Shown piece by piece: positions 1 to 7,597 of a stretch of DNA of 10,524 nt. The number at the start of each line of letters is the position of its first letter. Within the stretch, counting starts at the first letter, position 1. This stretch comes from Candidatus Woesearchaeota archaeon (lineage in GTDB: Archaea; Nanobdellota; Nanobdellia; Woesearchaeales; UBA11576), in the NCBI GenBank assembly GCA_030591125.1, contig JAUVBP010000025.1, positions 1-10,524 on the forward strand, in the 5' to 3' direction. The position numbers and the translations under genes were made by a program. A model generated the notes under the pieces. It had not been told where the DNA came from, made no database searches, and saw only the letters and a list, made by a program, of their open reading frames with translations.

Positions 1-332
1 AATTCCTCGATGAGCGCTTCAAGCTTATCGACCCGCAGGAAATACCTGTTTCCCTCATGGATCACTATGCCTGCATCCTTCAGCTTATTGATGTGGTGCA
101 CGACTGTCCCGCGTGTAAGCGTCAGCCTATAGGCCAACTCATCACTGCTGATAGGCCGTTTCTGCTTTGCTGCTTTCAATAGTTCAATAAACACCCTGAA
201 GCAGCACTTGTCCTTGTCGCGCATATTGAATAATCCAAGAGAATTCCCTAGGAACTGGAGGTCATCATTGACATTATGTTCTGTAGGTTTGCGTATTTTT
301 ACTATGGTTATCTTCTGATGGATAAAGGTCAT
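1..332 (-). CDS. Winged-helix transcriptional regulator, 3' end cut by window edge
   Basis: Reading the minus strand from ATG 332-330 gives 110 residues without a stop, and the frame is still open at base 1. Residues about 43-100 form a winged helix-turn-helix: a first helix (CCFRVFIELLKAAK), a second helix after PISSDELAYRL, a recognition helix around TRGTVVHHINKLKDAG (73-88), and a wing strand ending in GNRYFLR (94-100). This resembles the ArsR/HTH_20 type of archaeal regulators. The first 35 residues are less typical. A TATA box on the same strand (361-370) lies about 34 bases upstream, so the leader is short; I see no clear ribosome-binding site. The gene is divergent from grpE and shares its intergenic region, which carries a 17-bp palindrome. 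I infer a local regulator of the chaperone genes, similar in role to Phr or HrcA but not clearly homologous. Ligand or heat sensing cannot be read, because the C-terminus is missing. Confidence 0.85.
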   Translation of the reverse strand, partial: MTFIHQKITIVKIRKPTEHNVNDDLQFLGNSLGLFNMRDKDKCCFRVFIELLKAAKQKRPISSDELAYRLTLTRGTVVHHINKLKDAGIVIHEGNRYFLRVDKLEALIEE

Positions 333-360
333 ATCTGCTCTTTTAGCAAGTTGTCGTTCA

Positions 361-370
361 GGTATATAAA
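361..370 (-). promoter_or_regulatory. TATA box of the winged-helix regulator gene
   Basis: On the minus strand the bases read TTTATATACC, a good archaeal TATA box. Transcription would start about 25 bases downstream, near 340, giving a leader of only about 8 bases before ATG 332. It stands back to back with the grpE TATA box about 20 bases away, so the two promoters may compete for TBP/TFB. Confidence 0.65.
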
Positions 371-380
371 TCTTAACCAA

Positions 381-394
381 AACCTTTATATATA
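381..394 (+). promoter_or_regulatory. TATA box (with BRE-like upstream bases) of the grpE-dnaK-dnaJ block
   Basis: The stretch AACCTTTATATATA is a strong archaeal promoter. The same twelve bases AACCTTTATATA recur at 7210-7221 before the lysine-rich protein gene. The predicted transcription start is near 412-416, about 40 bases before the grpE ATG. The leader ends in a G-run (441-445) seven bases before the start codon, which may act as a weak ribosome-binding site. Confidence 0.75.
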
Positions 395-415
395 AGCGGA
401 CTTTACATACTTCTC

Positions 416-432
416 GTTGACTTTAAGTCAAC
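416..432. promoter_or_regulatory. Perfect 17-bp palindrome, likely repressor operator
   Basis: Arms GTTGACTT (416-423) and AAGTCAAC (425-432) are exact reverse complements around a single T. The site begins at or just after the predicted grpE transcription start. Archaeal repressors such as Phr bind at this position and block RNA polymerase recruitment. The divergent winged-helix gene next door is the obvious candidate ligand. It is not the bacterial CIRCE sequence. I see no second complete copy in the window, only isolated half-sites inside genes (for example AAGTCAACC near 2586). Confidence 0.7.
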
Positions 433-452
433 CAAAATAAGGGGGTTTTTGT

Positions 453-974
453 ATGTCTGACAATCCTAAAGATGACAAAAAGGCGCAAGAAGTGAAGAAA
501 GAGATCAAGAAGCATCAGAAAGAAGAGAAGAAAGCGTCCAAGACTGATGAGAACGCTGCAAAGATAGAAGAGCTCACTGATGACCTCCAGCGTGTACAGG
601 CAGATTTTGAGAACTATAAGAAACGTGTCGATAGGGAGTCTGCACATTTCAGAGAATACGCATGCTCAGATATGCTGAAAAAGCTGCTTGCAGTGCTTGA
701 CTCTTTTGAGATGGCGCTGAAGAACACTGATGATCCTGAGGAGTTCATCAAGGGTGTTGAGCTGATATATTCACAATTATATACTGCCCTAAAAGATGAG
801 GGCCTTGAGCACATAGAGGCAGAAGGGAAGAGGCTTGACCCTCATATCCATGATGTCATGCTCTCTGAGAAGTCTGAAGAGCCTGAAGATACCATACTAG
901 AGGAGCTCCAGAAAGGTTACACTCTCAAAGGTGCCGTACTGCGCCATTCGAAAGTCAAGGTAGCAAAAAGGTGA
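453..974 (+). CDS. grpE: GrpE, nucleotide exchange factor of DnaK
   Basis: The product has 173 residues and is cytoplasmic. GrpE exchanges ADP for ATP on DnaK and so resets the chaperone cycle. The first 40 residues are Lys/Glu-rich and probably disordered. A long dimer helix follows (KIEELTDDLQRVQADFENYKKR, about residues 37-58), then a four-helix-bundle part with LLAVLDSFEMAL and a beta domain carrying the family signature LDPHIHDVML...GYTLKGAVLRHSKVKV. Length and order of parts match the family. ATG 453 is the only sensible start and follows the G-run at 441-445. The gene is first in the chaperone block, behind a strong TATA box and the palindrome at 416-432. Its TGA overlaps the GTG start of the next gene, so the two are translationally coupled. 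Confidence 0.95.
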   Translation: MSDNPKDDKKAQEVKKEIKKHQKEEKKASKTDENAAKIEELTDDLQRVQADFENYKKRVDRESAHFREYACSDMLKKLLAVLDSFEMALKNTDDPEEFIKGVELIYSQLYTALKDEGLEHIEAEGKRLDPHIHDVMLSEKSEEPEDTILEELQKGYTLKGAVLRHSKVKVAKR

Positions 975-1492
975 TTGATATCGTACTGAAAAAAGATACT
1001 CCATTGAAAGACGTGTTGGAGATTGGCGGTGACTGCGACAAGTGCGGCAAGTGCTGCTCTTACGGCTCTGGTTTCATGCTCGAGTCTGAGGTCGCGAAGA
1101 TAGCCAATTTCCTCAGGATACCTACAGATAAGTTCAGGAAGGATTTTCTTGAGGAGACTGAGATTTTCCATACAAATCTATTCAAGATCAGGCCGATGAA
1201 GAAGGATGGCAAGCCATATGGTCCCTGCATGCTGCTGGAGAACAGCAAGTGCAGGATACATGAAGTCAAGCCCTTGCATTGTAGGGTGGGAAATTGCAGC
1301 GATCATGGCGACGACCTTCACACATGGTTCATCGTCAACCACTGCCTCAACATATACGATCCTGAATCGATAAGGCAGTACGCATCTTACCTCGAGACAG
1401 GAGGTCGGGTGATTCAGGGCGCAGAGCTTGATGTCTTGTTCCCTGACAAGAGCAAGCTCAAGAGCATACTCAACTATGAACGCTTCAGGTGA
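971..1492 (+). CDS. YkgJ-family Cys-cluster (CxxCxxCC) protein
   Basis: The product has 173 residues. An N-terminal cluster (C22, C25, C28, C29, reading DCDKCGKCC) and a second set (C86, C94, C104, C109, in PYGPCMLLENSKCRIHEVKPLHC) match the YkgJ/CxxCxxCC family (PF03692), whose members are thought to bind zinc or an iron-sulfur cluster. No catalytic role is established for most of them. The GTG start at 971 overlaps the grpE stop (GTGA), which argues for coupled translation and a tie to GrpE. A role in redox or metal sensing alongside the chaperones is only inference. The C-terminal 60 residues carry one further Cys (NHCLN). Confidence 0.85.
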   Translation: MIDIVLKKDTPLKDVLEIGGDCDKCGKCCSYGSGFMLESEVAKIANFLRIPTDKFRKDFLEETEIFHTNLFKIRPMKKDGKPYGPCMLLENSKCRIHEVKPLHCRVGNCSDHGDDLHTWFIVNHCLNIYDPESIRQYASYLETGGRVIQGAELDVLFPDKSKLKSILNYERFR

Positions 1493-1514
1493 AGCAAGAA
1501 CAAAGGTGAATCCG

Positions 1515-1871
1515 ATGGAACAGAACAAGATTAACATTTCAGTCGACGATGGCGATGCTTTCTTTTGCCATGAGATGTCGATCAACTATAACCCTATGCA
1601 GCTGATATTCGATTTCAAATCAGTTACACCAAGGGTGGACATGCGGTCCAAGCAGGGTCCATCGATAAAAGTGAAGCATAATGTCGTGATGCTGGATCCG
1701 TTCCATGCAAAGCAGATGCTCCAGCTCCTGAACAAGGTCGTAGTGGACTACGAGAAGGATTTTGGAGAGATAAAGAAACCTGAGGCGATCGAGAGGATGG
1801 AACAGAAGATAAAAGACAAACAGGCACACCCTGATCCGAAGACAGTCTCGACCCCGACATATTTCGGATGA
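1515..1871 (+). CDS. DUF3467-family protein
   Basis: From ATG 1515 the product has 118 residues. The body, from INISVDDGDAFFCHE to VVDYEKDFGEI, matches my recollection of DUF3467 (PF11950), with its typical pattern of a short beta-rich N-terminus, a conserved VVMLDPFHAKQML helix and a YE.dFG.I ending. The last 35 residues are charged and probably loose. The family has no assigned function. I chose ATG 1515 because AGGTGA (1504-1509) lies five bases ahead. An ATG at 1476 in the same frame would overlap the preceding gene and has no such site; the longer open frame back to 1428 lies inside that gene. The gap to the previous stop is 22 bases, so this belongs to the same transcription unit. Its place before dnaK suggests, without proof, a link to protein quality control. 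Confidence 0.8.
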   Translation: MEQNKINISVDDGDAFFCHEMSINYNPMQLIFDFKSVTPRVDMRSKQGPSIKVKHNVVMLDPFHAKQMLQLLNKVVVDYEKDFGEIKKPEAIERMEQKIKDKQAHPDPKTVSTPTYFG

Positions 1872-2003: not shown

Positions 2004-3932
2004 ATGTCAAAGATAATCGGAATCGATCTGGGAACATCAAATTCAGCTGCAGCATTCTTGGAGGCAGGACGGCCTAAGATAATACCGTCTGCTGAAGGTG
2101 CTACGCAGTATGGTAAGGCGTTCCCGAGCGTAGTTGCTTTCACTAAAGAGCATCAGATGCTCGTAGGTGAGCCTGCAAGGAGGCAGGCAGTCTCAAATCC
2201 TGACGGCACGATAAGTGCTGCCAAGAGGAAGATGGGGACGAGCTTCAAGTACAACATCAACAGCAAAGAGTACACTCCACAGCAGATATCTGCATTCATA
2301 CTGCAGAAGATCAAGAAGGATGCTGAAGAGTTCCTGGGAGAGAAGGTTGAGAAGGCAGTGGTGACTGTCCCTGCTTATTTCGATGACAATCAGAGGCAGG
2401 CTACAAAGGACGCAGGCACTATTGCAGGTCTTGAGGTCGTGAGGATAATAAACGAGCCTACTGCAGCATCGCTTTCGTATGGTCTTGACAAGTCTGACCA
2501 GGAGCACAAGATACTTGTGTTCGACTTCGGCGGTGGTACTCTTGACGTGACAATCATGGAGTTCGGCGAAGGTGTGTTCGAGGTAAAGTCAACCTCTGGA
2601 GATACTCAGCTTGGTGGCACGGACATGGACAAGATGATCGTCGATTGGCTGGTATCAGAGTTCAAGACTTCTGAAGGTATTGAATTGAGTTCAGACTCTA
2701 CAGCGATGGAGCGTCTTAGGGAAGCTGCTGAGAAGGCAAAGATAGAGCTCTCTACGACAGTGGAGACTGACATAAATCTTCCTTTCATCAGCGCAAATGA
2801 CAAAGGTCCTAAACATCTTCTCATAAAACTCAAGAGGGCCAAGCTTGAGGAGCTTGTGGGCAGCACGATTGAGAAATGCAGGCACCCTATAGAGCAGGCG
2901 ATTGCAGATGCTAAGCTTAAACCTGCAGATATTGACAAGATAATCATGGTAGGTGGTCCTACAAGGATGCCCGTGGTCAAGAAGTTTGTTGAAGGTCTTA
3001 TAGGTAAGACTGCAGAAGGAGGAGTGGACCCTATGGAGTGTGTGGCGATGGGTACAGCGATCCAGGGAGGGGTCCTTTCAGGTGATGTGAAGGATGTTCT
3101 TCTGTTGGATGTGACTCCTTTGAGCCTTGGTATAGAGACTCTTGGAGGTATCTTGACCAAGCTTATAGATAGGAACACCACTATCCCTACAAAGAAGTCG
3201 CAGATATTCTCTACTGCTGCTGACAATCAGCCTGCAGTGACGATCCGTGTCTTCCAGGGCGAGCGTCCTATGGCGGTTGACAACAAGCTGTTGGGGAACT
3301 TCGACCTTGTCGGGTTGCCACCTGCACCGAGAGGTGTACCTCAGATTGAAGTCACCTTCGATATTGATGCCAATGGCATCCTGAATGTATCTGCAAAAGA
3401 CATCGGTACAGGCAAGCAGCAGGCGATGACCATTACCGCGCCGAATAAGCTTGACGATGATGCTGTCAGTAAGATGAGACAGGAAGCAGAATCTCATGCA
3501 GAAGAGGACAAGAAGCGGAAGGAAGAGGTTGAGATAATCAACAAGGCAGACACGCTTGTGTATTCATCTGAGAAGACTATGAAGGACATGGAAGGCAAGG
3601 TGTCTGAGGACAAGTTGAAACCTCTTAAGGCAGAGATAGCTGAGATCAAGAAGCTTCTTGAGCCTGAGCAGAAGGATGTCGAGACCATAAAGAAGAAGCT
3701 TGAGGAGCTTGAGAAGCTTGCTGGCGATGCTGCGACTGAGATGTATCAGAAGGCTCAGAAAGAGCATGCCGAGAAGCAGGCCAAGGAAGGCAAAGCTCCT
3801 GAAGGCGACGCAGCGAAAGGCAAGGACGAGAAGGTCGTCGATGCTGACTACGAAGTCGAAGACGAGAAGAAGAAGGAAGATAAGAAGTCTGACGACAAGA
3901 AACCTGAAGAGCCTAAAGCAGAGGAGAAATGA
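2004..3932 (+). CDS. dnaK: DnaK (Hsp70) chaperone
   Basis: The product has 642 residues, close to the bacterial DnaK length. The ATPase domain (about 1-363) opens with GIDLGTSNS (6-14), carries [12 protein letters not shown] from about 173, and has the [13 protein letters not shown] motif. The hydrophobic linker DVLLLD is at 364-369. The substrate-binding beta domain follows ([10 protein letters not shown]...; [14 protein letters not shown]), then the helical lid, then a long Lys/Glu/Asp tail from about residue 600, which begins with the bacterial-like VVDADYE. The first phosphate loop reads GTSNSA rather than the usual GTTNSC, a mild change. DnaK binds exposed hydrophobic peptides in an ATP cycle with the GrpE and DnaJ encoded nearby. 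It follows DUF3467 by 132 bases, which hold the twin dyads. T-runs after the stop may end part of the transcripts. Confidence 0.97.
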
Positions 3933-4508: not shown

Positions 4509-5642
4509 ATGGCAAAGGATTACTATAAGACACTGGGAGTTGAGAAGAACGCTTCACGGGATGAGATCAAGAAAGCCTATAAGCGCTTGGCAAAGAAATT
4601 ACATCCTGACATCAATAAGGAGATAGGGTCAGCTGAGAAGTTCAAGGAAGTGAACGAGGCTGCAGCAGTATTGGGTGATGACCAGAAGCGGTCCCATTAT
4701 GATCAGTTCGGGACTGCTGACTTCGGTGCAGGTGGCCCTGGTGCTGGCTTTGACTTCAATGATTTTGGCGGTCGTGGTTTTGATTTCGGCGACATCTTTG
4801 AGAGCCTGTTCACCGGAGGCGGTTTTGGAGGCTTCGGAGGTGGCGGAAGACGCGGGCCACGTAGAGGCTCTGACCTGAGATATGATATTGAAGTCGACCT
4901 TGAGGTTGCAGTCAGCGGTGCTGAGAAGCACATAACCATCCCGAGATACGAGACCTGCACCAAATGCAAGGGAACTGGTGCAGAATCTGATTCTGACATA
5001 CAGTCCTGTCCTGAGTGTGGTGGAAGGGGCACAGTGATAAAGACACAACGCACACCTTTTGGGATGTTCCAGACATCTTCTACATGCAGGCGGTGTCGTG
5101 GTGAAGGTCAGGAGATAACAAAACATTGTTCTGTATGTGATGGTGCAGGCCGTGTTGAACAGGAACGTAAGATAAAGGTTGACATACCTTCAGGTGTCAG
5201 CACAGGGACCACTCTTAGGCTGGGTGGCCAGGGTGAGGCTGGTGAGAAGGGTGCAAGGGAAGGAGACCTTTACGTTGTAGTGCATGTCAATCATCATAAG
5301 ATATTCGACCGTAAAGGGAATGACCTTTACATGGAAGTGCCTTTATCCTTCATGACTGCGGTGATGGGAGACAGTATAGAGGTCCCTACTATAGATGGTC
5401 AGGCCAAACTGAAGATACCTGCAGGGACACAATCCAACACTCTTTTCAAGATGCGTGGTAAAGGTGTGCCTGATCTGCAGGGGTCAGGGACTGGTGATCA
5501 GTATGTGCGTGTCGTTGTCCATACTCCTGAGAGTCTCAATGCAAAGCAGAAGAAAGCGATGAAGGATCTCTCAAAGGCTATGGGTGACAAGATGGCTCCC
5601 AAGAAAGGTTTTTTTGAGAAAGTGAAAGAAAGATTTGTATGA
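4509..5642 (+). CDS. dnaJ: DnaJ (Hsp40), type I J-protein
   Basis: From ATG 4509 the product has 377 residues, the normal DnaJ length. The J domain (1-70) has DYYKTLGV and the HPD triad at 32-34, which stimulates DnaK ATPase. A Gly/Phe-rich linker follows (about 75-120). The zinc centre has four CxxC pairs: C150/C153, C167/C170, C193/C196 and C207/C210. Two C-terminal beta domains and the dimer end complete it. The frame has earlier starts (GTG 4500, ATG 4503), overlapping the HD gene stop. I prefer 4509 because it gives the canonical MAKDYY start and puts GGATGA (4494-4499) nine bases ahead. ATG 4503 remains possible and would add two residues. The gene ends the chaperone block and converges on the lipoprotein gene. 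Confidence 0.96.
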   Translation: MAKDYYKTLGVEKNASRDEIKKAYKRLAKKLHPDINKEIGSAEKFKEVNEAAAVLGDDQKRSHYDQFGTADFGAGGPGAGFDFNDFGGRGFDFGDIFESLFTGGGFGGFGGGGRRGPRRGSDLRYDIEVDLEVAVSGAEKHITIPRYETCTKCKGTGAESDSDIQSCPECGGRGTVIKTQRTPFGMFQTSSTCRRCRGEGQEITKHCSVCDGAGRVEQERKIKVDIPSGVSTGTTLRLGGQGEAGEKGAREGDLYVVVHVNHHKIFDRKGNDLYMEVPLSFMTAVMGDSIEVPTIDGQAKLKIPAGTQSNTLFKMRGKGVPDLQGSGTGDQYVRVVVHTPESLNAKQKKAMKDLSKAMGDKMAPKKGFFEKVKERFV

Positions 5643-7221: not shown

Positions 7222-7300
7222 CTAAAATACGCATAATTACTGTTAATTGTTAGTCTAAGCGCGTTAAACGTGCTTTTACTGGCAGAACGAGGTGAGTGTT

Positions 7301-7597
7301 TTGGCAAAAAAGAAAGCTACAAGAAAAAAGGCAACCCGTAAAAAGGTCGCTAAAAAGAAGCCGGCTAAAAAGAAGAAAGCTGTGAAGAAGAAAGCAGCAA
7401 AGAAAAAGCCAGCTAAGAAGAAGAAAGCTGTAAAGAAGAAAGCAGTTAAGAAGAAAGCAGCAAAGAAAAGGCCAGCTAAGAAAAAGAAGGCTAAAAAGAA
7501 AGCTGTCAAGAAGAAGGCAGTGAAGAAAAAGCCAGCTAAGAAAAAGAAGGCTAAGAAAAAGCCAGCTAAGAAGAAGAAAGCTGCAAAGAAGAAATAA
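7301..7597 (+). CDS. Lysine-rich, histone H1/Hc1-like DNA-binding protein
   Basis: From TTG 7301 the product has 98 residues: 59 Lys, 3 Arg, and otherwise only Ala, Val, Pro, Thr and the start Met. It has no acidic or aromatic residue. It is made of degenerate AxKKK pentamers, with PAKKKKA recurring several times, as in the tails of eukaryotic H1 and in bacterial Hc1/Hc2-like and AlgR3-like proteins. Such chains are disordered and bind DNA or RNA by charge, so nucleoid compaction is the likely role. I chose TTG 7301 because AGGTGA (7290-7295) stands five bases ahead and the protein then begins MAKKK. A GTG at 7292 would sit inside that site. The coding strand is almost pure purine. It has its own strong promoter and strong terminators, so it is a single-gene unit. 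Confidence 0.85.
   Translation: MAKKKATRKKATRKKVAKKKPAKKKKAVKKKAAKKKPAKKKKAVKKKAVKKKAAKKRPAKKKKAKKKAVKKKAVKKKPAKKKKAKKKPAKKKKAAKKK

Follow-up and report, generated by a model that had tools for sequence, protein, structure and literature searches.

The palindrome that lies over the predicted transcription start of grpE in a Candidatus Woesearchaeota genome is quite probably the operator of the small winged-helix (WH) protein encoded on the other side of the same intergenic region, and that protein a repressor dedicated to proteostasis (the heat-shock response) in Woesearchaeota and other orders of the class. The window, by which is meant the whole 10,524-nucleotide stretch of DNA analysed, is contig G000:C155 of a 1.31 Mb assembly that is 67% complete. 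If this reading is right, the WH protein would be the third archaeal heat-shock regulator and the first for DPANN archaea, as far as searches of an open-access library show (they brought up no such regulator for Woesearchaeota or any other DPANN group), and laterally acquired bacterial chaperones would be among the targets of an archaeal regulator. With its short operator, small protein and naturally occurring specificity variant (T76A, paired with GTTTA or GTTAA operators) the proposal is testable in vitro without culture.

The sequence-only reading had a winged-helix gene diverging from grpE, which the open reading frames and their Pfam matches bear out (Table 1). On the other side grpE is followed by a CxxCxxCC gene, a DUF3467 ORF, dnaK, an HD-domain gene and dnaJ, in that order. 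The WH product is 110 amino acids long in the window, its C-terminal part being lost at the contig end; complete relatives have ~135. Since the window holds no second palindrome, control of dnaK from 416-432 assumes a single transcript, failing which it would be control of grpE alone. A CxxC gene after grpE is also present in G021, G024, G035 and G042, and may regularly form part of the chaperone operon.

Table 1. Features of the window bearing on the grpE promoter and the genes beyond it
Feature	Position	Strand	Basis or remark
Winged-helix (WH) regulator gene	3..332	-	ORF, ATG at 332; HTH_20 and HTH_5 Pfam matches
WH-gene TATA box TTTATATA (minus strand)	363..370	-	Sequence; predicted start near ATG
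grpE-promoter TATA box TTTATATA	385..392	+	Sequence; A-rich BRE-like stretch immediately upstream
Degenerate upstream half-site GCGGACTTTAC	396..406	+	20 bp before palindrome; position conserved in relatives
Putative operator palindrome GTTGACTTTAAGTCAAC	416..432	+	At predicted grpE transcription start
grpE	453..974	+	PF01025, E 2.9e-42
CxxCxxCC (PF03692) protein gene	971..1492	+	Overlaps grpE end; same transcript presumed
DUF3467 ORF	1428-1871	+	Precedes dnaK
dnaK	2004..3932	+	PF00012, E 1.9e-221
dnaJ	4509..5642	+	DnaJ_C, DnaJ and DnaJ_CXXCXGXG domains

On direct reading of the sequence the palindrome is the perfect 17-mer that had been announced, with 8-bp arms about a 1-nt centre. With up to 3 mismatches allowed it is the sole match in the window, dinucleotide shuffles averaging 0.04, and in its own assembly, 67% complete, it is the sole copy at ≤2 mismatches, all others having 3; at that completeness the grpE site only was seen, and none at Hsp20 or CDC48 promoters. 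Its placement at the predicted grpE start, also part of the earlier reading, is supported by the TATA box TTTATATA, which starts 31 bp before it, and by the best TATA match having that spacing in 40 of 63 relatives.

That figure comes from 63 non-redundant promoters aligned on the palindrome and picked for ≤2 mismatches to the motif, so that conservation in the motif columns is partly a matter of choice, the TATA box and the half-site at -20 being unselected. The grpE-direction TATA has its best match at offset -31 in the 40 promoters just mentioned, and the commonest offset of the divergent WH TATA is -53 (19/63). A second GTTGAY half-site, with 5 or 6 of the 6 bases, stands exactly at -20 in 43 of the 63 (12 at the next-highest offset). 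GTTGATnTTAC is its common form in relatives, and the element at that place in the window, GCGGACTTTAC, is degenerate and a poor match. The -20 site of G171 forms a full variant palindrome of its own, GTTTA-N7-TAAAC thus being present twice, 20 bp apart, and in G063 the -20 half-site is GTTAAC, which resembles the main operator of that genome.

Conservation was followed in an order-level sample of 59 genomes, own included, of which 49 (own included) have the WH gene and 52 grpE, and in 80 named loci listed out of 312 WH homologues counted; the two samples overlap, some of the named loci being the same contigs. The record titles of the nearest named homologues are mostly Candidatus Woesearchaeota, the rest being Nanoarchaeota, Nanoarchaeia, ‘DPANN group archaeon’ or plain ‘archaeon’. 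The conserved form of the operator in relatives, beside the divergent WH gene, is GTTGAYTTNAARTCAAC. In the 250 bp upstream of WH at each of the 80 named loci listed, its best match has 0 mismatches in 39, 1 in 23 (hence 62/80 at ≤1), 2 in 6, 3 in 3 and at least 5 in 9, to be set beside mononucleotide shuffles, with 0 of 1600 at ≤2 mismatches and 8 at 3. Promoter flanks are ~33% identical between pairs, so the site is not explained by close kinship.

In the order itself 28 of the 49 WH loci have, near WH, a match to GTTGACTTNAAGTCAAC with 0-2 mismatches; at the others the best match there has 3 (5 loci), 4 (2 loci) or at least 5 (14 loci). Eleven of these last 14 genomes have the site at a distant grpE or Hsp20-grpE promoter (G024, G028, G030, G032, G034, G035, G044, G047, G048, G051 and G058), that promoter being Hsp20-led in G024, G035 and G044, the last with GTTGAGTTTAACTCAAC at 2 mismatches. 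The remaining three are G055, with a GTTTA variant before Hsp20, G021, where WH and grpE are codirectional and there is a weak site only, and G014, whose grpE is just a fragment at a contig end. Ten of the 49 WH genomes are without a site at ≤1 mismatch (G001, G002, G003, G009, G010, G014, G017, G021, G044 and G055), and the GTTGA-N7-TCAAC core is retained in G002, G003, G010, G017 and G044. The nearest genomes, of the same genus as the window, have a drifted site: the core is intact in G002 and G003 and has one mismatch in G001. The sequence-only reading had staked itself on close relatives that keep the regulator also keeping the palindrome, and they do, in drifted form in 3/3 of the same genus and beside WH or at grpE in others.

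What are the targets? At ≤1 mismatch the 59 genomes of the order contain 63 sites, in 44 genomes, as against 5 for the reversed pattern. When sorted by hand according to their neighbour genes, 56 of the 63 sites are beside WH or at chaperone promoters. Of these, 46 are beside WH and/or head the grpE operon, in some cases with Hsp20 first, and 10 are at other chaperone promoters: GroES/GroEL or GroEL in G005, G012, G031, G036 and G038, CDC48 in G024 and G030, and Hsp20 in G032, G053 and G058. The other seven (G008:C20, G015:C21, G020:C3, G023:C47, G040:C37, G043:C34 and G052:C56) overlap ORFs, have no adjoining chaperone gene and were set aside as background, their number being near the 5 of the reversed control. 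One of the seven, inside the first codons of LonB in G020, had suggested LonB as a target, but neither WH nor grpE was found there and it is taken as chance. Going away from the WH gene, the first recognised gene within 400 bp is grpE at 50 of the 80 named loci listed, Hsp20 at 11 and GroES at 1, with none at 18. The sequence-only reading had offered a regulator and operator for the dnaK system; the grpE-dnaK-dnaJ part of this has held, and confinement to it has not, since Hsp20, GroES/GroEL and CDC48 are included too. Judged by its neighbours, the site is one that goes with chaperone promoters and not with the WH promoter: where WH stands apart its own promoter is mostly without a site (G013 and G050 have one), and autoregulation of WH accordingly looks rare.

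As to the protein, Pfam and NCBIfam give general HTH matches. Its closest solved relative by sequence is ST1889 (2d1h, E 8e-08), which is also among the Foldseek matches listed; those listed are winged helices of the general ArsR/MarR type, none of them reaching E ≤0.001. No entry recognised as Phr (PDB 2P4W), and so no homology to it beyond the HTH, was found among the 44 PDB sequence matches (E ≤10) or the 50 Foldseek matches listed. As modelled by AlphaFold (mean pLDDT 86), the L166 homologue has a winged helix-turn-helix and a 30-residue C-terminal helix, 104-133, which on the model is probably for dimerisation, and its predicted recognition helix is formed by residues 74-86.

Within that helix, 150 of 158 non-redundant rows have T at residue 76 and 4 have A (A in 4/245 before redundancy removal). 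The A76 rows are L296, L297 and L298, from one genus (G139, G171 and G183), and L327, from G063. In 3/3 T76A genomes with a readable operator, base 4 of that operator is changed symmetrically: G139 and G171 have GTTTA-N7-TAAAC at grpE, and G063 has GTTAA-N7-TTAAC before Hsp20, the contig of G183 ending before the site. Four T76 genomes of the G139/G171 family retain the GTTGA form at grpE, exactly in G179 and G190 and with 9/10 core bases in G073 and G312. There are counter-examples, with GTTTA operators and T76 unchanged, in G055 and G245. Genome-wide, the exact GTTTA pattern does not exceed its reversed control (3 vs 4 of 281 genomes), so that its position at grpE is all that counts in its favour, two of the three genomes being G139 and G171, at grpE. 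With two lineages only, the joint change of recognition-helix residue 76 and operator base 4 in these sequences is suggestive, not proof.

Is WH the reader of the palindrome, or merely a frequent neighbour of a chaperone-promoter operator that serves another DNA-binding protein? The latter we regard as quite unlikely. In a class sample of 281 genomes, in 103 of which WH is strong (E below 1e-25), a site counted as present when found at ≤1 mismatch anywhere in the genome occurs in 60/103 strong-WH genomes vs 17/178 others (Fisher p 2e-18, kinship ignored here as in all these tests), and the reversed control does not follow WH (7/103 vs 8/178, p 0.42). The association is also seen among the 144 genomes with grpE, where the site is in 59/96 with WH vs 4/48 without (p 3e-10, kinship ignored), with no difference for the reversed control (7/96 vs 5/48). 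Of those four without WH, G271 does carry part of a WH gene where a contig ends, ~50 bp away from its site. Another binder would more readily account for WH loci whose best nearby match has at least 5 mismatches, as in the 14 of 49 above, and 43 of the 103 strong-WH genomes are without a site at ≤1 mismatch; at 40 WH loci from genomes without the strict site many retain GTTGA-N7-TCAAC or a near or symmetric variant, several have nothing near WH, and one family has the site at a distant grpE instead. It would account too for genomes with a site and no regulator. Five of the 10 WH-less genomes of the 59 have a site at ≤1 mismatch; in G020 and G043 it overlaps coding sequence, and in G042, G045 and G053 it is at Hsp20 or Hsp20-grpE promoters, a profile search of these three having found no convincing WH. 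The simple statement that WH-less genomes lack the site had therefore to be dropped, being wrong for G042 and G045, where Hsp20 precedes grpE. Against this, the three genomes are incomplete (84, 93 and 85%, respectively), and either their WH is in unassembled sequence or another protein serves. The change of operator base 4 with T76A in two lineages also tells against a different binder. The distinct regulator/operator pair envisaged from the window thus gains from both the tracking of WH by the site across the class and the co-variation with the recognition helix; that WH binds the palindrome is well supported, though we infer it.

Granted WH as the binder, it could still be an activator or an architectural protein of the Lrs14/Sta1 kind rather than a repressor, which we hold to be very unlikely. 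The NCBIfam Sta1 and Lrs14 models do match most members at E ≤0.001 (47/49 and 46/49, respectively), with scores that in the one member examined in full, 32.6 and 27.5 bits, are far below the cut-offs of 80 and 90, and in this the protein is unlike the Sta1/Lrs14 family (ST1889, 2d1h); the conserved WH segment LQWLGxSLGLFNLRDKDKSCFR lies mostly before the part that these models match. More to the point, the sites are downstream of TATA and over the predicted start, where a bound protein should hinder polymerase, as is reported for Phr (PMC9133787). Dispensing with a protein altogether, the palindrome could be read as an RNA hairpin in the grpE leader, whether thermometer or attenuator: by its sequence it would be the first part of the transcript and could pair into a short stem. 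Such pairing would call for compensating changes, however, and palindrome positions 6 and 12 vary independently (T/G 23, C/G 20, C/A 8 and T/A 6, six other pairs being excluded from the test; p 0.55 for 57 of the 63 promoters), a result more in keeping with half-sites read by a protein dimer than with an RNA stem. The outer operator bases are nearly invariant, though partly by choice of loci, and a half-copy stands upstream of the predicted start. The hairpin was rejected on the independence of the half-sites and is hardly credible.

On the preferred reading, with the WH protein as repressor, a WH dimer would read the two GTTGAY half-sites and, in many species, a second dimer would sit two helical turns (20 bp) upstream, between TATA and start, the dimers presumably cooperating. 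Occupation of the start region would block recruitment of RNA polymerase at the grpE-dnaK-dnaJ operon and, depending on the species, at Hsp20, GroES/GroEL and CDC48 promoters, until heat or unfolded protein released the repressor. Sequence comparison establishes the conserved site, where it lies, its target genes, its company with WH, the independence of its half-sites and the 20-bp tandem spacing; it is the position of the operator and the nature of the targets that point to repression as the sign and to heat as the trigger of release.

The outline is that of HrcA/CIRCE in bacteria, where the regulator gene is by grpE-dnaK-dnaJ, the promoter has an inverted repeat and groESL is a second target; the WH system has all three and differs in its ArsR-like winged helix and archaeal TATA promoter. 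Bacterial HrcA senses stress by titration with GroEL. The HrcA domain (PF01628) is in 0/59 genomes of the order, 7/14 control genomes being positive, and the CIRCE consensus, TTAGCACTC-N9-GAGTGCTAA, has 0 matches at ≤3 mismatches within the window, in agreement with the earlier statement that the site is not CIRCE. A more ambitious proposal is of an archaeal WH family, independent of Phr and HSR1, that controls laterally acquired bacterial chaperones (DnaK/GrpE/DnaJ and GroES/GroEL) together with Hsp20 and CDC48 via tandem operators spaced by two helical turns, and may sense stress by chaperone titration, an HrcA-like circuit rebuilt from archaeal parts; taken as a whole this is unlikely.

The archaeal comparison is with Phr and HSR1, the only archaeal heat-shock transcriptional regulators identified, according to a 2022 review (PMC9133787); another paper names the same two, both from Euryarchaeota and with regulons that are without thermosome genes (PMC10653856). 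Phr of Pyrococcus furiosus has a 29-bp site (TTTA at -10, TGGTAA at the start, AAAA at +10) that overlaps the start and blocks RNA polymerase binding, and it autoregulates (PMC9133787); its regulon includes an sHSP and an AAA+ ATPase (PMC10653856). HSR1 of Archaeoglobus fulgidus has the site CTAAC-N5-GTTAG, is in an operon with hsp20 and autoregulates (PMC9133787). Like that of Phr, the WH operator is downstream of TATA and overlaps the predicted start (the -31 spacing of the 40/63 loci), and, as with both Phr and HSR1, there are sites at sHSP and AAA+ ATPase promoters, here those of Hsp20 and CDC48 in relatives. Compared with Phr, the operator is different, tandem sites are 20 bp apart, GrpE/DnaK/DnaJ and GroES/GroEL have sites too, and a WH gene standing apart is mostly without a site of its own whereas Phr is autoregulated. 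With HSR1 it shares a palindromic site with a 5-bp centre, GTTGAY-N5-RTCAAC for WH as against CTAAC-N5-GTTAG, and the latter has 0 matches at ≤2 mismatches within the window.

Several other arrangements met with in relatives and in the window may be recorded. The genus of L296-L298 (G139, G171 and G183) has a shared GTTTATCTTAAATAGTTTAC stretch before WH, possibly a degenerate autoregulatory site. In G005 GroES/GroEL and a distant WH paralogue (28% identity) diverge, with GTTGATTTTAGGTCAAC between them (L143:2055-2071 and 2197-2607). G014 likewise has a distant WH that diverges from GroES and a Cpn60 gene, there without the strict site (L158:1106-1922). The site in G038 is between GroES/GroEL and a divergent TFIIE-alpha (TFE) gene (L133:1309-1833 and 1957-1973). 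In family f77, 27 genomes have grpE; the WH homologue of most of them is no more than a distant one (E ~1e-6 to 1e-11), and 1/27 has the site at 1 mismatch. The heat-shock control of this family may differ. Lastly, at 7292-7597 (+) the window has a repetitive ORF rich in Lys, Ala and Pro that by eye is like histone H1-like tails.
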